Source: an uncultured Collinsella sp. (GTDB taxonomy: Bacteria > Actinomycetota > Coriobacteriia > Coriobacteriales > Coriobacteriaceae). Taken from it: a stretch of 38,434 nucleotides of DNA. A program made the position numbers and the translations under genes. The DNA lies in the NCBI GenBank assembly GCA_934630385.1, contig CAKTWE010000012.1:1-38434 (forward strand), given 5' to 3'. Under the pieces are notes generated by a model, which had not been told where the DNA came from, did no database searches, and saw nothing but the letters and a program-made list of their open reading frames with translations. Below are positions 9,090-33,134 of this stretch, piece after piece; position 1 is the first letter of the stretch, and every line of letters starts with the position of its first letter.

Positions 9090-9180
9090 GGAGAGTTGTC
9101 CGAGTGGCCGAAGGAGCACGATTGGAAATCGTGTAGGCGTCAAAAGCGTCTCCAGGGTTCAAATCCCTGACTCTCCGCCA
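9090..9180 (+). tRNA. tRNA-Ser(GGA)
   Basis: The 91-nt sequence folds as a class II tRNA. It has an acceptor stem GGAGAGT/ACTCTCC, an anticodon loop TTGGAAA with anticodon GGA at 9124–9126, a long variable arm and the T-loop TTCAAAT. The 3' CCA is encoded. It reads UCC and UCU serine codons. Confidence 0.97.
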
Positions 9181-9189
9181 GTTAATTCC

Positions 9190-9219
9190 AAAGCAGGCCT
9201 TTGAGCCTGCTTTGTTTTT
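9190..9219 (+). terminator. terminator between the two tRNA-Ser genes
   Basis: The stem aaagcaggc/gcctgcttt (9 bp, 6-nt loop) is followed by gttttt. It lies 10 bp after the first tRNA and 10 bp before the second, so the second tRNA depends on read-through or on a promoter not recognised here. Confidence 0.75.
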
Positions 9220-9228
9220 ACCCCACGC

Positions 9229-9319
9229 GGAGGGGTGGCAGAGTGGTTGAATGCGGCGGTCTCGAAAACCGTTTGGCCTGTATAAGGTCACGAGGGTTCG
9301 AATCCCTCCTCCTCCGCCA
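9229..9319 (+). tRNA. tRNA-Ser(CGA)
   Basis: A class II tRNA of 91 nt, with acceptor GGAGGGG/CTCCTCC (one G-U pair), anticodon loop CTCGAAA with anticodon CGA at 9263–9265, a long variable arm, the T-loop TTCGAAT and an encoded CCA. It reads UCG. Its last 25 bases before CA recur inverted at 9384–9408. Confidence 0.97.
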
Positions 9320-21071: not shown

Positions 21072-21148
21072 TGGTGGACCTGACAAGATTCGAACTTGTG
21101 ACCTCCCGGTTATCAGCCGGACGCTCTAACCAACTGAGCTACAGGTCC
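21072..21148 (-). tRNA. tRNA-Ile(GAT), first copy
   Basis: A 77-nt tRNA with acceptor GGACCTG/CAGGTCC, D-arm AGCTCAGTTGGTTAGAGC, anticodon loop CTGATAA with anticodon GAT (plus-strand complement at 21112–21114), the T-loop TTCGAAT and an encoded CCA. It reads AUC and AUU. The sequence is identical to the copy at 21296. Confidence 0.97.
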
Positions 21149-21152
21149 ATCA

Positions 21153-21228
21153 TGGTGGAGGTTAGGGGGATCGAACCCCTGACCTCAGGCTTGCAAAGCC
21201 CGCGCTCTCCCAGCTGAGCTAAACCCCC
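21153..21228 (-). tRNA. tRNA-Ala(TGC)
   Basis: A 76-nt tRNA beginning GGGGGTTTAGCTCAGC, anticodon loop TTTGCAA with anticodon TGC (plus-strand complement at 21193–21195), the T-loop TTCGATC and an encoded CCA. Only 4 bp separate it from the next tRNA-Ile, so they form one transcript. It reads GCN alanine codons. Confidence 0.97.
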
Positions 21229-21239
21229 ACGGAGAAAGT

Positions 21240-21284
21240 AATAAACACCCCAGCGGCGACTCGGCTCTCGCTGGGGTGTTTATT
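21240..21284 (-). terminator. terminator-like hairpin between tRNA-Ile (second copy) and tRNA-Ala
   Basis: aataaacaccccagcg pairs perfectly with cgctggggtgtttatt (16 bp, 13-nt loop). It sits between the two tRNA units. The bases after it on the minus strand are ACTTTCT, not a clean T-run, so it may be leaky. Confidence 0.65.
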
Positions 21285-21295
21285 GCGAAAGAAAG

Positions 21296-21372
21296 TGGTG
21301 GACCTGACAAGATTCGAACTTGTGACCTCCCGGTTATCAGCCGGACGCTCTAACCAACTGAGCTACAGGTCC
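21296..21372 (-). tRNA. tRNA-Ile(GAT), second copy
   Basis: Identical over 77 nt to the copy at 21072–21148, with anticodon GAT (complement at 21336–21338) and an encoded CCA. It has its own good promoter at 21387–21416 and is followed by a hairpin. Confidence 0.97.
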
Positions 21373-26553: not shown

Positions 26554-27117
26554 TTAAGGCTCTTTTTTGCCCTGCACGCCCTTGGCCCACTCGGCACTGG
26601 CTCTCATGGCGTTCTCGAGGGCCTCGCGCAGTTTTTGGTCTTCGATGGGTGCCACTTGGCGCTCGATCTCGGCACGCTCGGCATCGCTTAGGTCGGCATG
26701 CGGAGCCGACGGACGCTCGGCCACGGCCGGACGCAGGCGCTCTTTGGCGGTGGGCGGTGTGTGGCCGGGGGCGGTCGTCTTGAACACCAGGCCGTCGACG
26801 TGCGCGCCGGCGCGCTCCATGCGCGCGCGGATAATCTCGCGCAAAAGTGTCATCTCCTGCGTCCATGAGGGCGAATCGAGGTACACCAGCAGTTCGTTGG
26901 ATTCGGGCAGGTAGCGCAGGCCCGTCACATGGCGCCCCTCGCGCGTACCCGAGCATACTGCATTCCAGGCGTGATAGACCGCACGAGATTCCTCTGCAGC
27001 CTCCATTTGCGCGCGGCGCTCCGGTGTCGCCGCGGCCAAAATGCGCCGGCGTTCGGCATCTAAAAAGCCGCCGAAAGCAACCGTGCCGTTCTCACGCTCA
27101 TAATTAGCACGCCTCAC
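26554..27117 (-). CDS. DUF721 (DciA-like) protein
   Basis: A 187-residue protein with the DUF721 fold in the middle: YHAWNAVCSGTREGRHVTGLRYLPESNELLVYLDSPSWTQEMTLLREIIRARM. In other bacteria DUF721 proteins called DciA load the replicative helicase; this gene's place after recF and before gyrB is the typical Actinobacterial one. The C-terminal 70 residues are low-complexity and charged. The start is GTG at 27117, which overlaps the last 14 bases of recF, so translation is probably coupled. DciA function is inferred from family and context only. Confidence 0.85.
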   Translation of the reverse strand: MRRANYERENGTVAFGGFLDAERRRILAAATPERRAQMEAAEESRAVYHAWNAVCSGTREGRHVTGLRYLPESNELLVYLDSPSWTQEMTLLREIIRARMERAGAHVDGLVFKTTAPGHTPPTAKERLRPAVAERPSAPHADLSDAERAEIERQVAPIEDQKLREALENAMRASAEWAKGVQGKKEP

Positions 27118-29323: not shown

Positions 29324-29561
29324 CTTTTAATACCTTTCTATAGATATAAATATCTTAATAATAGTAATAGCACTGACGAAACTGTTGATTACTCCCAAAG
29401 ACGCAGGTCAGACCCAGAAAGAGAATCGACAGCAACCTGTGTGCAACAGGGGTGGTTTTCCACGTTCAAAACCTGCGCAAAACTTTTCATCACCGCGGGT
29501 TGGGTTTTAGACACCTTATGCCCGTGGCTTCGACAAGTTTTCAACAGGTGTCTCTATTTCC
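29324..29561. other. dnaA–dnaN intergenic region with candidate DnaA boxes
   Basis: This 238-bp spacer contains AGTTTTCAACAGG at 29536–29548, exactly as found twice upstream of the dnaA operon. Looser candidates are TTTTCCACG at 29456–29464 and the palindromic cctgtgtgcaacagg around 29436–29450. An AT-rich stretch (tatagatataaatatctta) lies just before dnaN. It may be a secondary origin element or a DnaA-responsive regulatory region for dnaN. Confidence 0.5.
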
Positions 29562-31286
29562 CTACGAGCGCAGTGTAATTTTATCGCGCAGCGACTTGAG
29601 GTCTTCGGTGACAGTGCGGTCTTCCTGGATCATCTTCTGGACCTTTTTGTAGCTCGTGCTGACGGTCGAGTGGTTGCGGTTGCCAAATTCGGCGCCCACC
29701 GCCGTGGTCGTCATCTCGCACATCTCGATGGCTAGGTAGATAGCGATATGGCGTGCTTTGGCGATATTGGCGTTGCGACGCGGGCCGATGAGCTCCTCGT
29801 GCGTCACGCCGTACTGCTCTTCGATGACGGACTGAACCGTCTGGACGTTGATCTTTTTGGCCGATGTGTCGAAGTACTGGCTGGCGATGGCGTCGATATC
29901 GTCAAAGGTGAGCTCCCCGCCCTCGCGCTCGCGGTCGCCCGCCTCGCCGGCGCAGCGCTCGCAGAAGCTCTCGAGTTCGCGGATGTTGGTGCCCGAGACC
30001 TCGGCCATGTGTTTAAAGTGCTCGTCGGTCAGGTGCCCGCCGTCGCCCCCATAGGCCGCCAGCAGCGAGTCGTCGCCTGCCTCGGGAGCGGCGACGATGG
30101 TGTTCTCGTAATAGCGCTGCAAGATCTTGTATTTCATCTCGTAGCTGGGCTCTGCGACCAGGCAGAGCATGCCGGCGTTGAAGCGGCTGGTCAGACGCTC
30201 GTCCATGCTCAGGTCCTTGGGGGCGCGGTCTGCCGCGATGACGACCTTCTTGTTGTTGCGGATAAACTCGTCCATGAGCTGGAAAAAGTAGTCCACGCTC
30301 GCGCGCTTGCCGATGATGTTTTGGATGTCATCGATGATGAGCACGTCCACGCCGTGGTATGCCTGCATGATAGGGGCGTTGCTCTTCTTTTGGCGGTCGA
30401 ACTCGGTCATCAGGTCGTCCAGATATGCCTGGGAGTTGGCATACTTGACCTTGATCTCGGGCGACTTCTCGGCGAGCTCGTTTTTGATGGCAAGCAGCAG
30501 GTGCGTCTTGCCCAGGCCCGATTTGCCGTAGATGAACAGTGATGTGCACGTGCCGCGCTCGTCCGCGAGGGCGGCAAACTTGAGTGCCGAGCGATAGGCA
30601 TGGCTGTTCTCGGGGCCGTAGACAAAGTTCTCAAAGGTAAATTTTGAGTTCGCGGCGAGCGGGGCTCCATCCGCATTCTGCTCGGCCGGTACGGTCGGTG
30701 CTGGCATGGGTGAAGCGGGGGTCACAGCTTGCGTGGACTTAGTCGGCGCTCCGCCCTTCATCTGGTTCATCATGCGACGAAAATCATCGGCCGAGAGCGT
30801 GTTCTTGATTGCAATGCCCGAATCCGCGCCCGCCGCTGCGTCGTGAGCGATAGGCATGTGCGTGACGGGTGCGTTCGTTGACGTCGCCGCCGCGGTCGGC
30901 AACGGTGCCATGGTTTCACGGGAAACATCGCCGTGCTGGTGCTCGATTGTCGGCACGTCGCCTGCGGAGGCCGGCACCGCCGGGGAAGCAGCGGGAGCCG
31001 TGGCGGGCGCCGTCGCGGCGGCAGATTCGGCCGTTGCGCCTTGCGGTGCCACGATGTCGAGCGCGATCGGTGCAAAGGCGATTTCTTCCAGATAGGCCTC
31101 AATAGTCGGCTGATGCTTTTTGAGCTGCGCGATGGCAAAGCGCGAGGGGGCCTCGATCGTGAGCGTATCTTCGGTCAGGCTTATGGCGCGCGATTGCCCC
31201 AGCATGTTGATGAGGCGCGCATCTTGGCCATCGCGCTGGCAAAAGGCGATGGCGTCTCCCAAGATGATGCTTGCTTCCTCGTCCAC
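29562..31286 (-). CDS. dnaA: chromosomal replication initiator DnaA
   Basis: DnaA binds boxes at oriC and opens the duplex. Residues 1–75 form domain I. About 85–210 form a long Ala/Pro/Thr-rich domain II. Domain III starts at FTFENFVYGPENSHAY, with Walker A YGKSGLGKTH (254–262) and Walker B VLIIDDIQ (315–322). Domain IV has the DnaA signature EFGNRNHSTVSTSYKKV at the C-terminus. The start is GTG at 31286 after GGGAGAGACA. Its 574 residues are on the long side, from domain II. The ATPase/winged-helix gene ends 15 bp upstream and probably shares the transcript. A degenerate parS lies within domain II. Confidence 0.98.
   Translation of the reverse strand: MDEEASIILGDAIAFCQRDGQDARLINMLGQSRAISLTEDTLTIEAPSRFAIAQLKKHQPTIEAYLEEIAFAPIALDIVAPQGATAESAAATAPATAPAASPAVPASAGDVPTIEHQHGDVSRETMAPLPTAAATSTNAPVTHMPIAHDAAAGADSGIAIKNTLSADDFRRMMNQMKGGAPTKSTQAVTPASPMPAPTVPAEQNADGAPLAANSKFTFENFVYGPENSHAYRSALKFAALADERGTCTSLFIYGKSGLGKTHLLLAIKNELAEKSPEIKVKYANSQAYLDDLMTEFDRQKKSNAPIMQAYHGVDVLIIDDIQNIIGKRASVDYFFQLMDEFIRNNKKVVIAADRAPKDLSMDERLTSRFNAGMLCLVAEPSYEMKYKILQRYYENTIVAAPEAGDDSLLAAYGGDGGHLTDEHFKHMAEVSGTNIRELESFCERCAGEAGDREREGGELTFDDIDAIASQYFDTSAKKINVQTVQSVIEEQYGVTHEELIGPRRNANIAKARHIAIYLAIEMCEMTTTAVGAEFGNRNHSTVSTSYKKVQKMIQEDRTVTEDLKSLRDKITLRS
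30912..30927. promoter_or_regulatory. degenerate parS within dnaA
   Basis: On the minus strand TGTTTCCCGTGAAACC differs from the parS consensus TGTTTCACGTGAAACA at two of 16 positions. It encodes DVSRET of the DnaA linker, a peptide typical of parS sites inside coding regions. ParB binding is uncertain. Confidence 0.45.
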
Positions 31287-31301
31287 TGTCTCTCCCGTTC
31301 C

Positions 31302-32654
31302 TTAACCCTGCGTCTGCACGCGGTCTCTGCCGAGCTCGGTCAGATGGTATTTCTGGCCGTGCTTGATCACCAAACCAACTTGCGCTAGGTCGTTGAGCGT
31401 GCGTGACCACGTGGGGGCAGAGCTCCCAAGGGCCCGTGCCAAGTCGGTGGCTCCGCATGCTTCGTTTTGAGCTAAATAGCCCAGCGCTTTCTTTCCACGT
31501 TCGCTTACGTATGTGTTCGCCGGCGGCTGCGGATATTGTTGAGCCGCATTAGGATACATCATTTGAGCTGCCGGTTGTTGAGAACTCTGCATTGGCGGCA
31601 TCTGCTGTTGAAAACTTTGCGGCCACTGTTGGTAAGGCTGTTGCGGCATCTGCTGGGGCCAAGGGCTGTACTGTGCCTGGGGCATTTGCTGGTATGGCTG
31701 TTGATATCCCTGCGGGTACTGCTGCGGAAACGGGTGGGCATACCCCTGCTGCGGCATATATTGGGCGGGATATCCCTGCGGGTATGGCTGGTAGCCCATT
31801 TGCGGCGCGCTCGGTGTTCCCGCCACTTGCTGTGCGATGCCCGGGTCCAGATCTGCCGCCGGCATGGCCTGCGGCATGCTTTGCGTCATTGCCCCCGACG
31901 GTTCCATGGCCTCCTGCATGGGGAAGGCCATGGGCTGCTGGGCATATGATGCTGACTGTTGCATTTGCGGCGCCGCCATGGGCTGCTGCGTAAAAGTTCC
32001 AGGCAAGGGATATGCCGGCTGCTCCGTCTCGGGGCGTACGGCGGCTCCGCGTCCACCGGCGCGCTCGATCTCCTGCACGCGTTTGGGGTTGAGGCTTACG
32101 GTCACGACGGTGCCGTTGCCCATGTTGTCCTCGATCGATACCGCGCCGCCGGCGTTTTCCAGGTACTCCTGCACCATGGGGAAACCGGCTCCAGTGCCGC
32201 GGATATATCGTTTCATACTGCTATTTGCGCTGGTTACGCCAAAGTCGAAGGCGCGTTCCTTGTCATCGATGCCCGGCCCCTGGTCGGCAAAGCGAATGGT
32301 GTCGCCCCCATCGAGGATGGAGATGATGGGCTCCGCGAAGTGCGCGTGGATGAAGTTTTCCACAATCTCGCGAATCACCATGAGCGAGATATGACCGCCC
32401 TGTTCCTTCATGCACTGATAGACGGTGTTGGTCGTCTCTTCCAGGTAGGTACGGACGTCTTGCGGCTCGATAACGATCACGCGCGGCGTCGACAGCATGT
32501 CGTCGTAGACGGCGATGCGCGCCGCATACATGGCGCTCGGTGCTTTTTTTGCCGCGTCGTCGCTCGCGATCCGCTCTTCGCGCACACCGGTGATGTGCTC
32601 GTTATCGGGCGCCGGGTCTCCCGAATCAACCATGGTGTAGAAGTCGTCTGACAT
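31302..32654 (-). CDS. GHKL ATPase–P/Q/Y-rich–winged-helix protein upstream of dnaA
   Basis: A 450-residue protein with three parts. Residues ~55–190 form a GHKL/HATPase_c domain: the N box is IREIVENFIHAHF (Glu96, Asn100), the G1 box FADQGPGID (124–130), and the G2 box RGTGAGFPMV (152–161). It lacks a histidine phosphoacceptor domain, so it is closer to anti-sigma kinases such as SpoIIAB than to full sensor kinases. Residues ~220–380 are low complexity, rich in Pro, Gln, Tyr and Met, with short repeats such as QGYPAQYMPQQGY. Residues ~384–447 look like a winged helix (GYLAQNEACGATDLARALG, then LAQVGLVIKHG). It lies between the putative oriC and dnaA, 15 bp before dnaA. A role in origin or dnaA control is inferred from position only. 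Confidence 0.85.
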   Translation of the reverse strand: MSDDFYTMVDSGDPAPDNEHITGVREERIASDDAAKKAPSAMYAARIAVYDDMLSTPRVIVIEPQDVRTYLEETTNTVYQCMKEQGGHISLMVIREIVENFIHAHFAEPIISILDGGDTIRFADQGPGIDDKERAFDFGVTSANSSMKRYIRGTGAGFPMVQEYLENAGGAVSIEDNMGNGTVVTVSLNPKRVQEIERAGGRGAAVRPETEQPAYPLPGTFTQQPMAAPQMQQSASYAQQPMAFPMQEAMEPSGAMTQSMPQAMPAADLDPGIAQQVAGTPSAPQMGYQPYPQGYPAQYMPQQGYAHPFPQQYPQGYQQPYQQMPQAQYSPWPQQMPQQPYQQWPQSFQQQMPPMQSSQQPAAQMMYPNAAQQYPQPPANTYVSERGKKALGYLAQNEACGATDLARALGSSAPTWSRTLNDLAQVGLVIKHGQKYHLTELGRDRVQTQG

Positions 32655-32935
32655 GCTGCTCGCAATCGTTCAAAAGGTTTCGAACAAATAGTAGCTCAGC
32701 GCGCAATGTTTCTCATCTTTCGACAACTTTTCAAAACCTGTTGAAAACTTTGGAAAACGGGCGAAAAGTTCTCAACATTGCCAACATGACCTGTTGAAAA
32801 CTCGATGAAATATCGTGAAAAGTGTTTCGTCGGCCCCGAGAGCTCACGGGCTTATGGGGGAACCGTGTACACTCTGCAACCTTTTACCTTTGATTTCTTG
32901 ACATTTGAACATTGATTTCCCTACAATCTTCAAGC
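32655..32935. other. putative origin of replication (oriC)
   Basis: Genes diverge here: dnaA side on minus, rpmH side on plus, as expected at a bidirectional origin. CCTGTTGAAAACT occurs at 32737–32749 and 32790–32802 and matches AGTTTTCAACAGG in the dnaA–dnaN spacer. Variants are TTTTCAAAA at 32728–32736 and AGTTCTCAACA at 32767–32777. An AT-rich segment at about 32,881–32,935 could be the unwinding element. The core TTTTCAACA differs from E. coli TTATCCACA at two positions. Confidence 0.65.
32898..32927 (+). promoter_or_regulatory. rpmH promoter
   Basis: A perfect -35 TTGACA (32898–32903) and a -10 TACAAT (32922–32927) are separated by 18 bp, about 70 bp before the rpmH ATG. It lies at the edge of the AT-rich part of the putative origin. 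Confidence 0.85.
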
Positions 32936-32999
32936 TCACGTGTCTATATCTGCGTCCGCGTCCCCGCGGACACTCGAAATGCAGCAGGAGGAACTTAAG

Positions 33000-33134
33000 A
33001 TGAAGCGTACGTATCAGCCTAATAAGCGTAAGCGTGCCAAGACCCATGGCTTCCGTGCCCGTATGGCCACTAAGGGTGGTCGTGCCGTGCTCGCCCGTCG
33101 TCGCGCCAAGGGCCGCAAGCGTCTCACTGTCTAG
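33000..33134 (+). CDS. rpmH: 50S ribosomal protein bL34
   Basis: bL34 is a short, very basic 23S rRNA-binding protein. The 44 residues begin [21 protein letters not shown] and include [21 protein letters not shown], the complete family pattern. The start is the ATG at 33000, with AGGAGG about 8 nt upstream; a longer frame from 32940 is in the leader. It leads the rpmH–rnpA–yidD–yidC–jag cluster, driven by a strong promoter. Confidence 0.98.

Follow-up and report, generated by a model that had tools for sequence, protein, structure and literature searches.

What is a gene for a GHKL-type ATPase joined to a winged helix doing directly ahead of dnaA, and is that where it belongs? In the window, by which we mean the whole 38,434-nucleotide stretch of Collinsella DNA analysed here, this gene lies between rpmH and dnaA, and the first-pass annotation had proposed that its product regulates initiation or dnaA transcription.

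The gene and its surroundings

The features on which the analysis rests are the following, with coordinates in the window.

29324..29561, no strand: dnaA-dnaN gap, with DnaA-box-like sites at 29383, 29456 and 29538
29562..31286, minus strand: dnaA, GTG start, 15 bp downstream of the GHKL-winged helix gene (ORF and domain match)
31302..32654, minus strand: GHKL ATPase-linker-winged helix gene, 450 aa, ATG start (ORF list, domain search, AlphaFold2)
31305..31523, minus strand: winged helix, residues 378-450 (Pfam, AlphaFold2, fold search; profile in 234/236 loci)
31530..32054, minus strand: P/Q/Y/M-rich disordered linker, residues 201-375, lineage-specific (AlphaFold2, composition, family comparison)
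32055..32525, minus strand: Bergerat-fold (GHKL) ATPase domain, residues 44-200 (Pfam, AlphaFold2, Foldseek)
32184..32204, minus strand: G2 box IRGTGAG, residues 151-157 (pattern in 233/236 loci)
32268..32285, minus strand: G1 box DQGPGI, residues 124-129 (pattern in 233/236 loci)
32343..32369, minus strand: N-box E96...N100..H103 A104 (E96, N100 and H103 invariant in 23 sequences)
32625..32654, minus strand: extreme N-terminal motif MSDDFYTMVD (pattern M-x-x-F-[YF] in several Coriobacteriia groups)
32655..32999, no strand: gene-rpmH gap, 345 bp, candidate origin and operon control region, with DnaA-box-like sites at 32739, 32749, 32769 and 32792
33000..33134, plus strand: rpmH, divergent neighbour of the gene (ORF and domain match)

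The ORF coordinates agree with the earlier placement of the gene's stop 15 bp ahead of dnaA, and a gap this short suggests that the two are cotranscribed. A simple scan of the minus strand within 31200-33020 returned no promoter-like site, which is weak evidence either way. Across the whole window, Rfam at the gathering threshold gave five tRNAs and no other match (three clustered and two more; positions 21075-21372 on the minus strand and 9090-9316 on the plus strand). A 187-aa ORF at 26554-27117 (minus strand) adjoins a recF-like ORF, the sort of position for which PMC5109545 reports PF05258 (DciA) genes.

Domain architecture across the family

The window protein matches HATPase_c over residues 93-189 above the Pfam cut-off (E 8.3e-11), and no HisKA or other phosphoacceptor domain appears in Pfam at E<=1, which bears out the first-pass description of a complete N/G1/G2 ATPase that lacks one. 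At the C-terminus several winged-helix Pfam families match, all below their cut-offs (best HVO_A0261_N, 6.7e-8). The annotation had staked its case on a winged helix at this end, and AlphaFold2 models one, with a single helix past the wing as the end of the chain. Both folded domains are modelled with confidence, and pLDDT falls below 50 for residues 202-373. Among 236 non-redundant loci, the N-box, G1 and G2 patterns recur as listed above (233 for each), all three together in 229, and the two loci missed by the winged-helix profile, L263 and L271, are short ORFs.

The region between these domains behaves differently. In the window protein P, Q, Y and M make up 61% of residues 201-375 and charged residues 4.6%, and the composition described earlier for a P/Q/Y linker holds there; the linker as a prion-like, generally working part of the protein does not. 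Its length from profile end to profile start has a median of 187 residues in the window's family (group A). Groups B and C, drawn mostly from families f2 and f3, have medians of 94 and 96, and the remaining families of the class one of 27. Outside the class the median is 15 for other Actinomycetota, 62 for the Bacillota phylum and 20 for Sysuimicrobiota (where the length ranges from 11 to 24). The range is 157-219 residues in the window's group and 6-94 in the groups outside the class. With linker length not conserved between groups, a condensate-driving linker was rejected as a general feature, and the long linker may have a role in Collinsella-like species alone. The variable spacer comes after a short N-terminal motif, M-x-x-F-[YF], which is found in 29/29 loci of group A, 23/27 of group B, 2/12 of group C and 21/29 of group D. 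Outside the class it is rare (2/39, 2/18 and 0/19 loci; 19/63 in a mixed set of named relatives), and there other hydrophobic N-termini were seen by eye, such as MQDFFLRL and FSRLFRK.

Linkage to dnaA within the Coriobacteriia

The first survey covered 296 genomes of the class, of which 285 have some match at E<=0.001; the matches listed for them include ordinary kinases, so that this figure is not a gene count. We therefore worked with 98 strong-match loci (30, 40 and 28), which together with the window make 99. In 97 of these dnaA comes next on the same strand, the stop-to-stop frames of gene and dnaA lying anywhere from a 440-nt overlap to 200 nt apart; the two exceptions, L049 and L050, run into a contig end 108 and 239 nt past the frame. 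Homologues scattered away from dnaA, which would have counted against the first-pass reading, were thus not what the synteny survey of the class returned. Upstream, rpmH is divergent in 95 of the 99 loci; L053 and L094 gave no rpmH, and on L061 and L064 the rpmH match reads otherwise.

Absence was surveyed in 60 chosen genomes, many of them picked for a weak match: 28 combine a strong match with DnaA, 11 show DnaA but no strong match, and 21 are without a DnaA match. Nine of the 11 (G162, G227, G132, G030, G062, G021, G009, G012 and G140; loci L131-L135, L137 and L139-L141) have rpmH and dnaA together on a single stretch, where no GHKL-winged helix gene was found between them, and in the other two, G146 and G096, the region is cut by contig ends. 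Three of the nine belong to genera in which other genomes have the gene: G007 has it and G030 of the same listed genus does not, and G073 has a strong match in the same genus as G162 and G227. Since the gene is both present and absent within single genera, it can be lost, and with at least nine genomes of the class lacking it, it is not universally essential.

Occurrence in other phyla and descent

A profile of 18 relatives matched 157 of 396 genomes of Actinomycetota at E<=1e-15, genomes of the class included; in one genome, at G063:C1:47210-48094, the profile match spans one in-frame TAG. Among 39 loci outside the class, dnaA is next in 33, and in the remaining six the contig breaks off 6 to 371 nt past the gene; for G335, one of the six, dnaA stands at the start of the other end of the contig (L160). 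A scan of named genome contigs gave, from the best 80 of 226 relatives among the matches listed, dnaA as the next gene in 79: 78 by the same strand and a frame within 600 nt, plus L250, where the DnaA match begins directly after the gene. The 80th, L271, ends at a contig end. The named relatives include Collinsella, Olsenella, Eggerthella, Slackia, Rubrobacter, Candidatus Hakubella, Armatimonadetes CSP1-3 (now Candidatus Sysuimicrobiota) and Bacillota MAGs. Around the Bacillota MAG G655, 26 of 249 genomes of its phylum match at E<=1e-20, and around CSP1-3 (G658), 38 of 43 genomes of its phylum match. Here a further 40 loci have dnaA next in 39 cases (L288 meets a contig end 318 nt on) and six more loci of the Bacillota phylum in all six, so that dnaA is next in 25 of the 26 Bacillota-phylum positives and in all 20 examined of the 38 Sysuimicrobiota positives. 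It should be noted that the locus sets overlap, the same genes entering twice, which makes the counts not additive, and that sampling follows the phyla of three centres.

Wherever dnaA does not follow, the contig itself runs out, 1 to 371 nt past the open frame; the loci examined, a subset of the positive genomes, include no family member located away from dnaA. When all 279 records with a DnaA match are taken, duplicates counted, the dnaA frame starts within 300 nt in 277. The other two are L153, with 489 nt between gene and dnaA and a 161-codon frame in between, and L240, with 505 nt and frames of up to 168 codons; these gaps may hold another gene or reflect a badly read dnaA start. In several other records the beginning of the DnaA match lies further into the dnaA frame, and there is overlap with small frames in that part.

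The gene is mostly present once: a single match was seen in 147/157 positive genomes of Actinomycetota and 23/26 of the Bacillota phylum (the top candidates being scored in both) and in 38/38 Sysuimicrobiota. In a tree of 86 rows, the Coriobacteriia (31 rows; support 100/98) and the Sysuimicrobiota (12 rows; 100/99) each form one clade. Two changes are required to account for the Bacillota rows and two for the other Actinomycetota, and two long branches meet. A family tree that tracks the larger taxa in this way fits mostly vertical descent, and transfer between phyla may also have taken place. Relatives also occur in records titled Desulfuromonadales (P0197) and Aeromicrobium (L212, a bin), which may reflect wrong binning or a wider spread.

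DnaA boxes and candidate control sites

If the protein binds DNA near its own gene, which sites could it use? In the window, the gene-rpmH gap holds four 9-mers at two mismatches to TTATCCACA, a raw count made without a control, and the variant TTTTCAACA has four copies in the whole window, two of them in this gap, one in the dnaA-dnaN interval and one within the gene at 31606. Box-like sites lie beyond dnaA too, at the three positions listed above. As the gap sites are two-mismatch 9-mers and TTTTCAACA also occurs elsewhere in the window, we treat 'oriC' as inferred. Boxes with at most one mismatch to TTATCCACA were then counted per locus from rpmH to the start of the ATPase domain and set against simple shuffles. 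They average 2.56 vs 0.08 in other Actinomycetota (36 loci), 3.05 vs 0.14 in named loci (66), 9.06 vs 0.22 in the Bacillota phylum (18) and 4.55 vs 0.04 in Sysuimicrobiota (20); the window itself has none at this threshold, and has two exact copies of TTTTCAACA ahead of the gene. The dnaA-dnaN interval is likewise enriched (2.03 vs 0.15 in 30 loci of other Actinomycetota; 1.77 vs 0.14 in 66 named loci), and boxes found on both sides of dnaA do not single out the GHKL-winged helix gene.

Several words recur upstream of the gene: TGTTGAAAA in 28/31 loci of group A (0.8 expected) and 12/26 of group B (0.0), TGTGGAAAA in 9/10 loci of group C (0.2) and TGTGGATAA in 25/28 of group D (0.0). With box-like words masked, no word or dyad common to groups B to G was found that could be an operator distinct from DnaA boxes, and the enriched words left were mostly promoter- or ribosome-site-like. 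A GAAA-N2-TTTC dyad in group B (11/26 loci) was discarded as a separate site, as it overlaps a variant DnaA box.

The window DnaA reads GNRNHSTV; among the 135 relatives in which this motif was read, 90 carry Asp at the corresponding place (GGRDHTTV type). Together with the TTTTCAACA boxes, this suggests that DnaA-box specificity has shifted in the window's family and a neighbouring one. The DnaA motif could be read in those 135 of the 236 loci, and all 236 were sorted by the recognition helix of the GHKL-winged helix protein. With the helix T-W-[ST]-R (72/236 loci), CAACA-type boxes lead by 44 to 5, with 23 tied or without boxes, and the canonical DnaA Asp is found in 0/40 read; with STAYRxL (120/236), CCACA-type boxes lead by 90 to 12 (18 tied or none), and Asp stands in 78/80 read. 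The remaining helices (44/236) go with CCACA (23 to 6, 15 tied or none) and with Asp in 12/15 read. We take this match of helix and box as a noteworthy coincidence and not as evidence of binding, because the loci of the T-W set essentially make up a single clade, and in the third class the helix is altered but the boxes are not.

In group D, boxes of the form CGAACN4GTTCG, which we take to be the LexA-like consensus, are present at up to one mismatch in 11/28 loci (0.2 in shuffles), compared with 2/10 in group C, 0/31 in group A and 0/26 in group B. They lie 54-115 nt ahead of the open frame in L073, L095, L096, L097 and L098, among others, and hint at SOS control of the gene-dnaA operon in group D.

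Possible functions

Adjacency to dnaA alone is not function. A gene that stands beside dnaA in at least three phyla should have some connection with replication or with the supply of DnaA, and we give about even chances to the family protein being an ATP-binding, DNA-binding regulator encoded with dnaA that acts on the dnaA operon and/or oriC. We regard this as the best reading because adjacency spans phyla, the gene is mostly single-copy, the protein combines ATP motifs with a DNA-binding domain, and the upstream region is rich in DnaA boxes. Of the regulator first proposed, then, the ATP- and DNA-binding architecture and the tight link to dnaA stand, the latter now across phyla, and the prion-like linker as a general part falls away. 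Against this reading count the missing separate operator, the boxes between dnaA and dnaN, the nine genomes without the gene, and the fact that 157 of 396 genomes of the phylum match. How might such a regulator work? The GHKL domain would bind ATP, as its near-invariant motifs and predicted fold suggest, and the ATP, ADP or dimer state would set the hold of the winged helix on DNA. The target would be the DnaA-box-rich region ahead of the gene, and from there the protein would tune expression of the operon that it shares with dnaA, or initiation at oriC, or both. The linker would act as a tether of variable length, and the short hydrophobic motif at the N-terminus may be a docking site for a partner.

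Alternatively, the protein could be a kinase that phosphorylates DnaA or another partner in trans, in the manner of SpoIIAB on SpoIIAA, the winged helix merely recruiting it to the origin. Histidine-kinase catalytic domains are indeed most of the Foldseek matches listed, the SpoIIAB model TIGR01925 matches 9/18 members at E<=0.001, and Glu-96 sits four residues ahead of Asn-100, both invariant in 23 sequences; we take them to be the catalytic base and metal ligand pair of other GHKL proteins. Yet L180, with 24.2 bits, stays far below the TIGR01925 cut-off of 135, HATPase_c_2 is without a match at E<=1, and among the neighbours scored at family loci (rpmH, dnaA and dnaN) dnaA is the sole known travelling partner, all of which makes a phospho-switch rather unlikely. 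It is less likely still that the protein is a direct initiation factor, an ATP-dependent dimer that clamps origin DNA, remodels it or assists DnaA in opening it. The link to dnaA across phyla with its cluster of DnaA boxes, the MutL model (6/18 members at E<=0.001) and the joint change of boxes and recognition helix in one clade speak for this; the listed fold matches are to kinase-type rather than clamp-type ATPases, and nine genomes do without the gene around an intact dnaA region, an absence more in keeping with a regulator than with a core initiation factor. We judge it equally improbable that the protein regulates transcription of other genes and happens only to share the dnaA promoter, held in place by gene order and origin-proximal dosage. 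Its winged helix does resemble MarR-type transcription regulators and gene order around dnaA is often conserved anyway, but here the order is kept in three phyla, and no member lies off dnaA among the loci examined.

On a broader reading the family would be an ancestral replication control of deep Bacillati, a partner of DnaA passed on mostly by vertical descent. Its GHKL ATP switch and winged helix would work at the origin alongside DnaA, and the recognition helix would have changed with the DnaA boxes in Coriobacteriaceae and Atopobiaceae; we hold this tentatively, as somewhat unlikely. If the regulator reading itself is true, a GHKL-type nucleotide switch joins the regulators of bacterial initiation, and the reading is open to direct tests in cultured members.

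Relation to known proteins

A full-text literature search, with subscription journals mostly outside it, found no description of the gene among the papers listed or in passages of PMC13270200, PMC5109545 and PMC5847659. Among the fold matches listed there is no known DnaA regulator (YabA, Soj, SirA, DnaD, Hda or DiaA), which is not evidence of difference.

The closest ATPase folds include DIP2311 of Corynebacterium diphtheriae (PDB 3lmm), along with histidine kinases. At the level of fold, DIP2311 shares the order of a Bergerat domain followed by a winged helix. It differs in being larger, with chains of 477 to 556 residues, and in the N-terminal AlbA_2 domain that it and its family presumably carry, for which Pfam gives no match at E<=1 in the window protein; we know of no tie of the DIP2311 family to dnaA. 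With sensor histidine kinases the family shares HATPase_c, found in 18/18 members at E<=0.01. No HisKA or DHp domain is among the 23 Pfam families at E<=0.01 in these members, and the NCBIfam kinase models among the matches listed lie far below cut-off.

SpoIIAB, to which the gene had first been compared, and RsbW likewise have a GHKL domain without a phosphoacceptor, and there are weak matches to TIGR01925 and PDB 1th8. The family differs from them in several ways: besides the low score of the SpoIIAB model, TIGR01925 is absent for the window protein among the NCBIfam matches listed (best 25 of 47), HATPase_c_2, the marker of the SpoIIAB/RsbW family, is also missing at E<=0.01 from the 18 members, the closest folds are DIP2311 and histidine kinases, and the family protein has a winged helix and a linkage to dnaA. 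The sequence matches to MutL, CheA and SpoIIAB are all weak. The MarR family shares the winged-helix fold, with scores below the Pfam cut-offs (MarR_2 23.1 bits vs 27; MarR 16.5 vs 24.6); in contrast to the MarR type, the chain has a single helix beyond the wing before it stops, and a linker ties it to an ATPase. On the features tested, then, membership in the kinase and anti-sigma families fails, and a like function may still apply. The GHKL domain and the winged helix are known parts, and what would be new is the dnaA-linked system that they form, given its proposed role.
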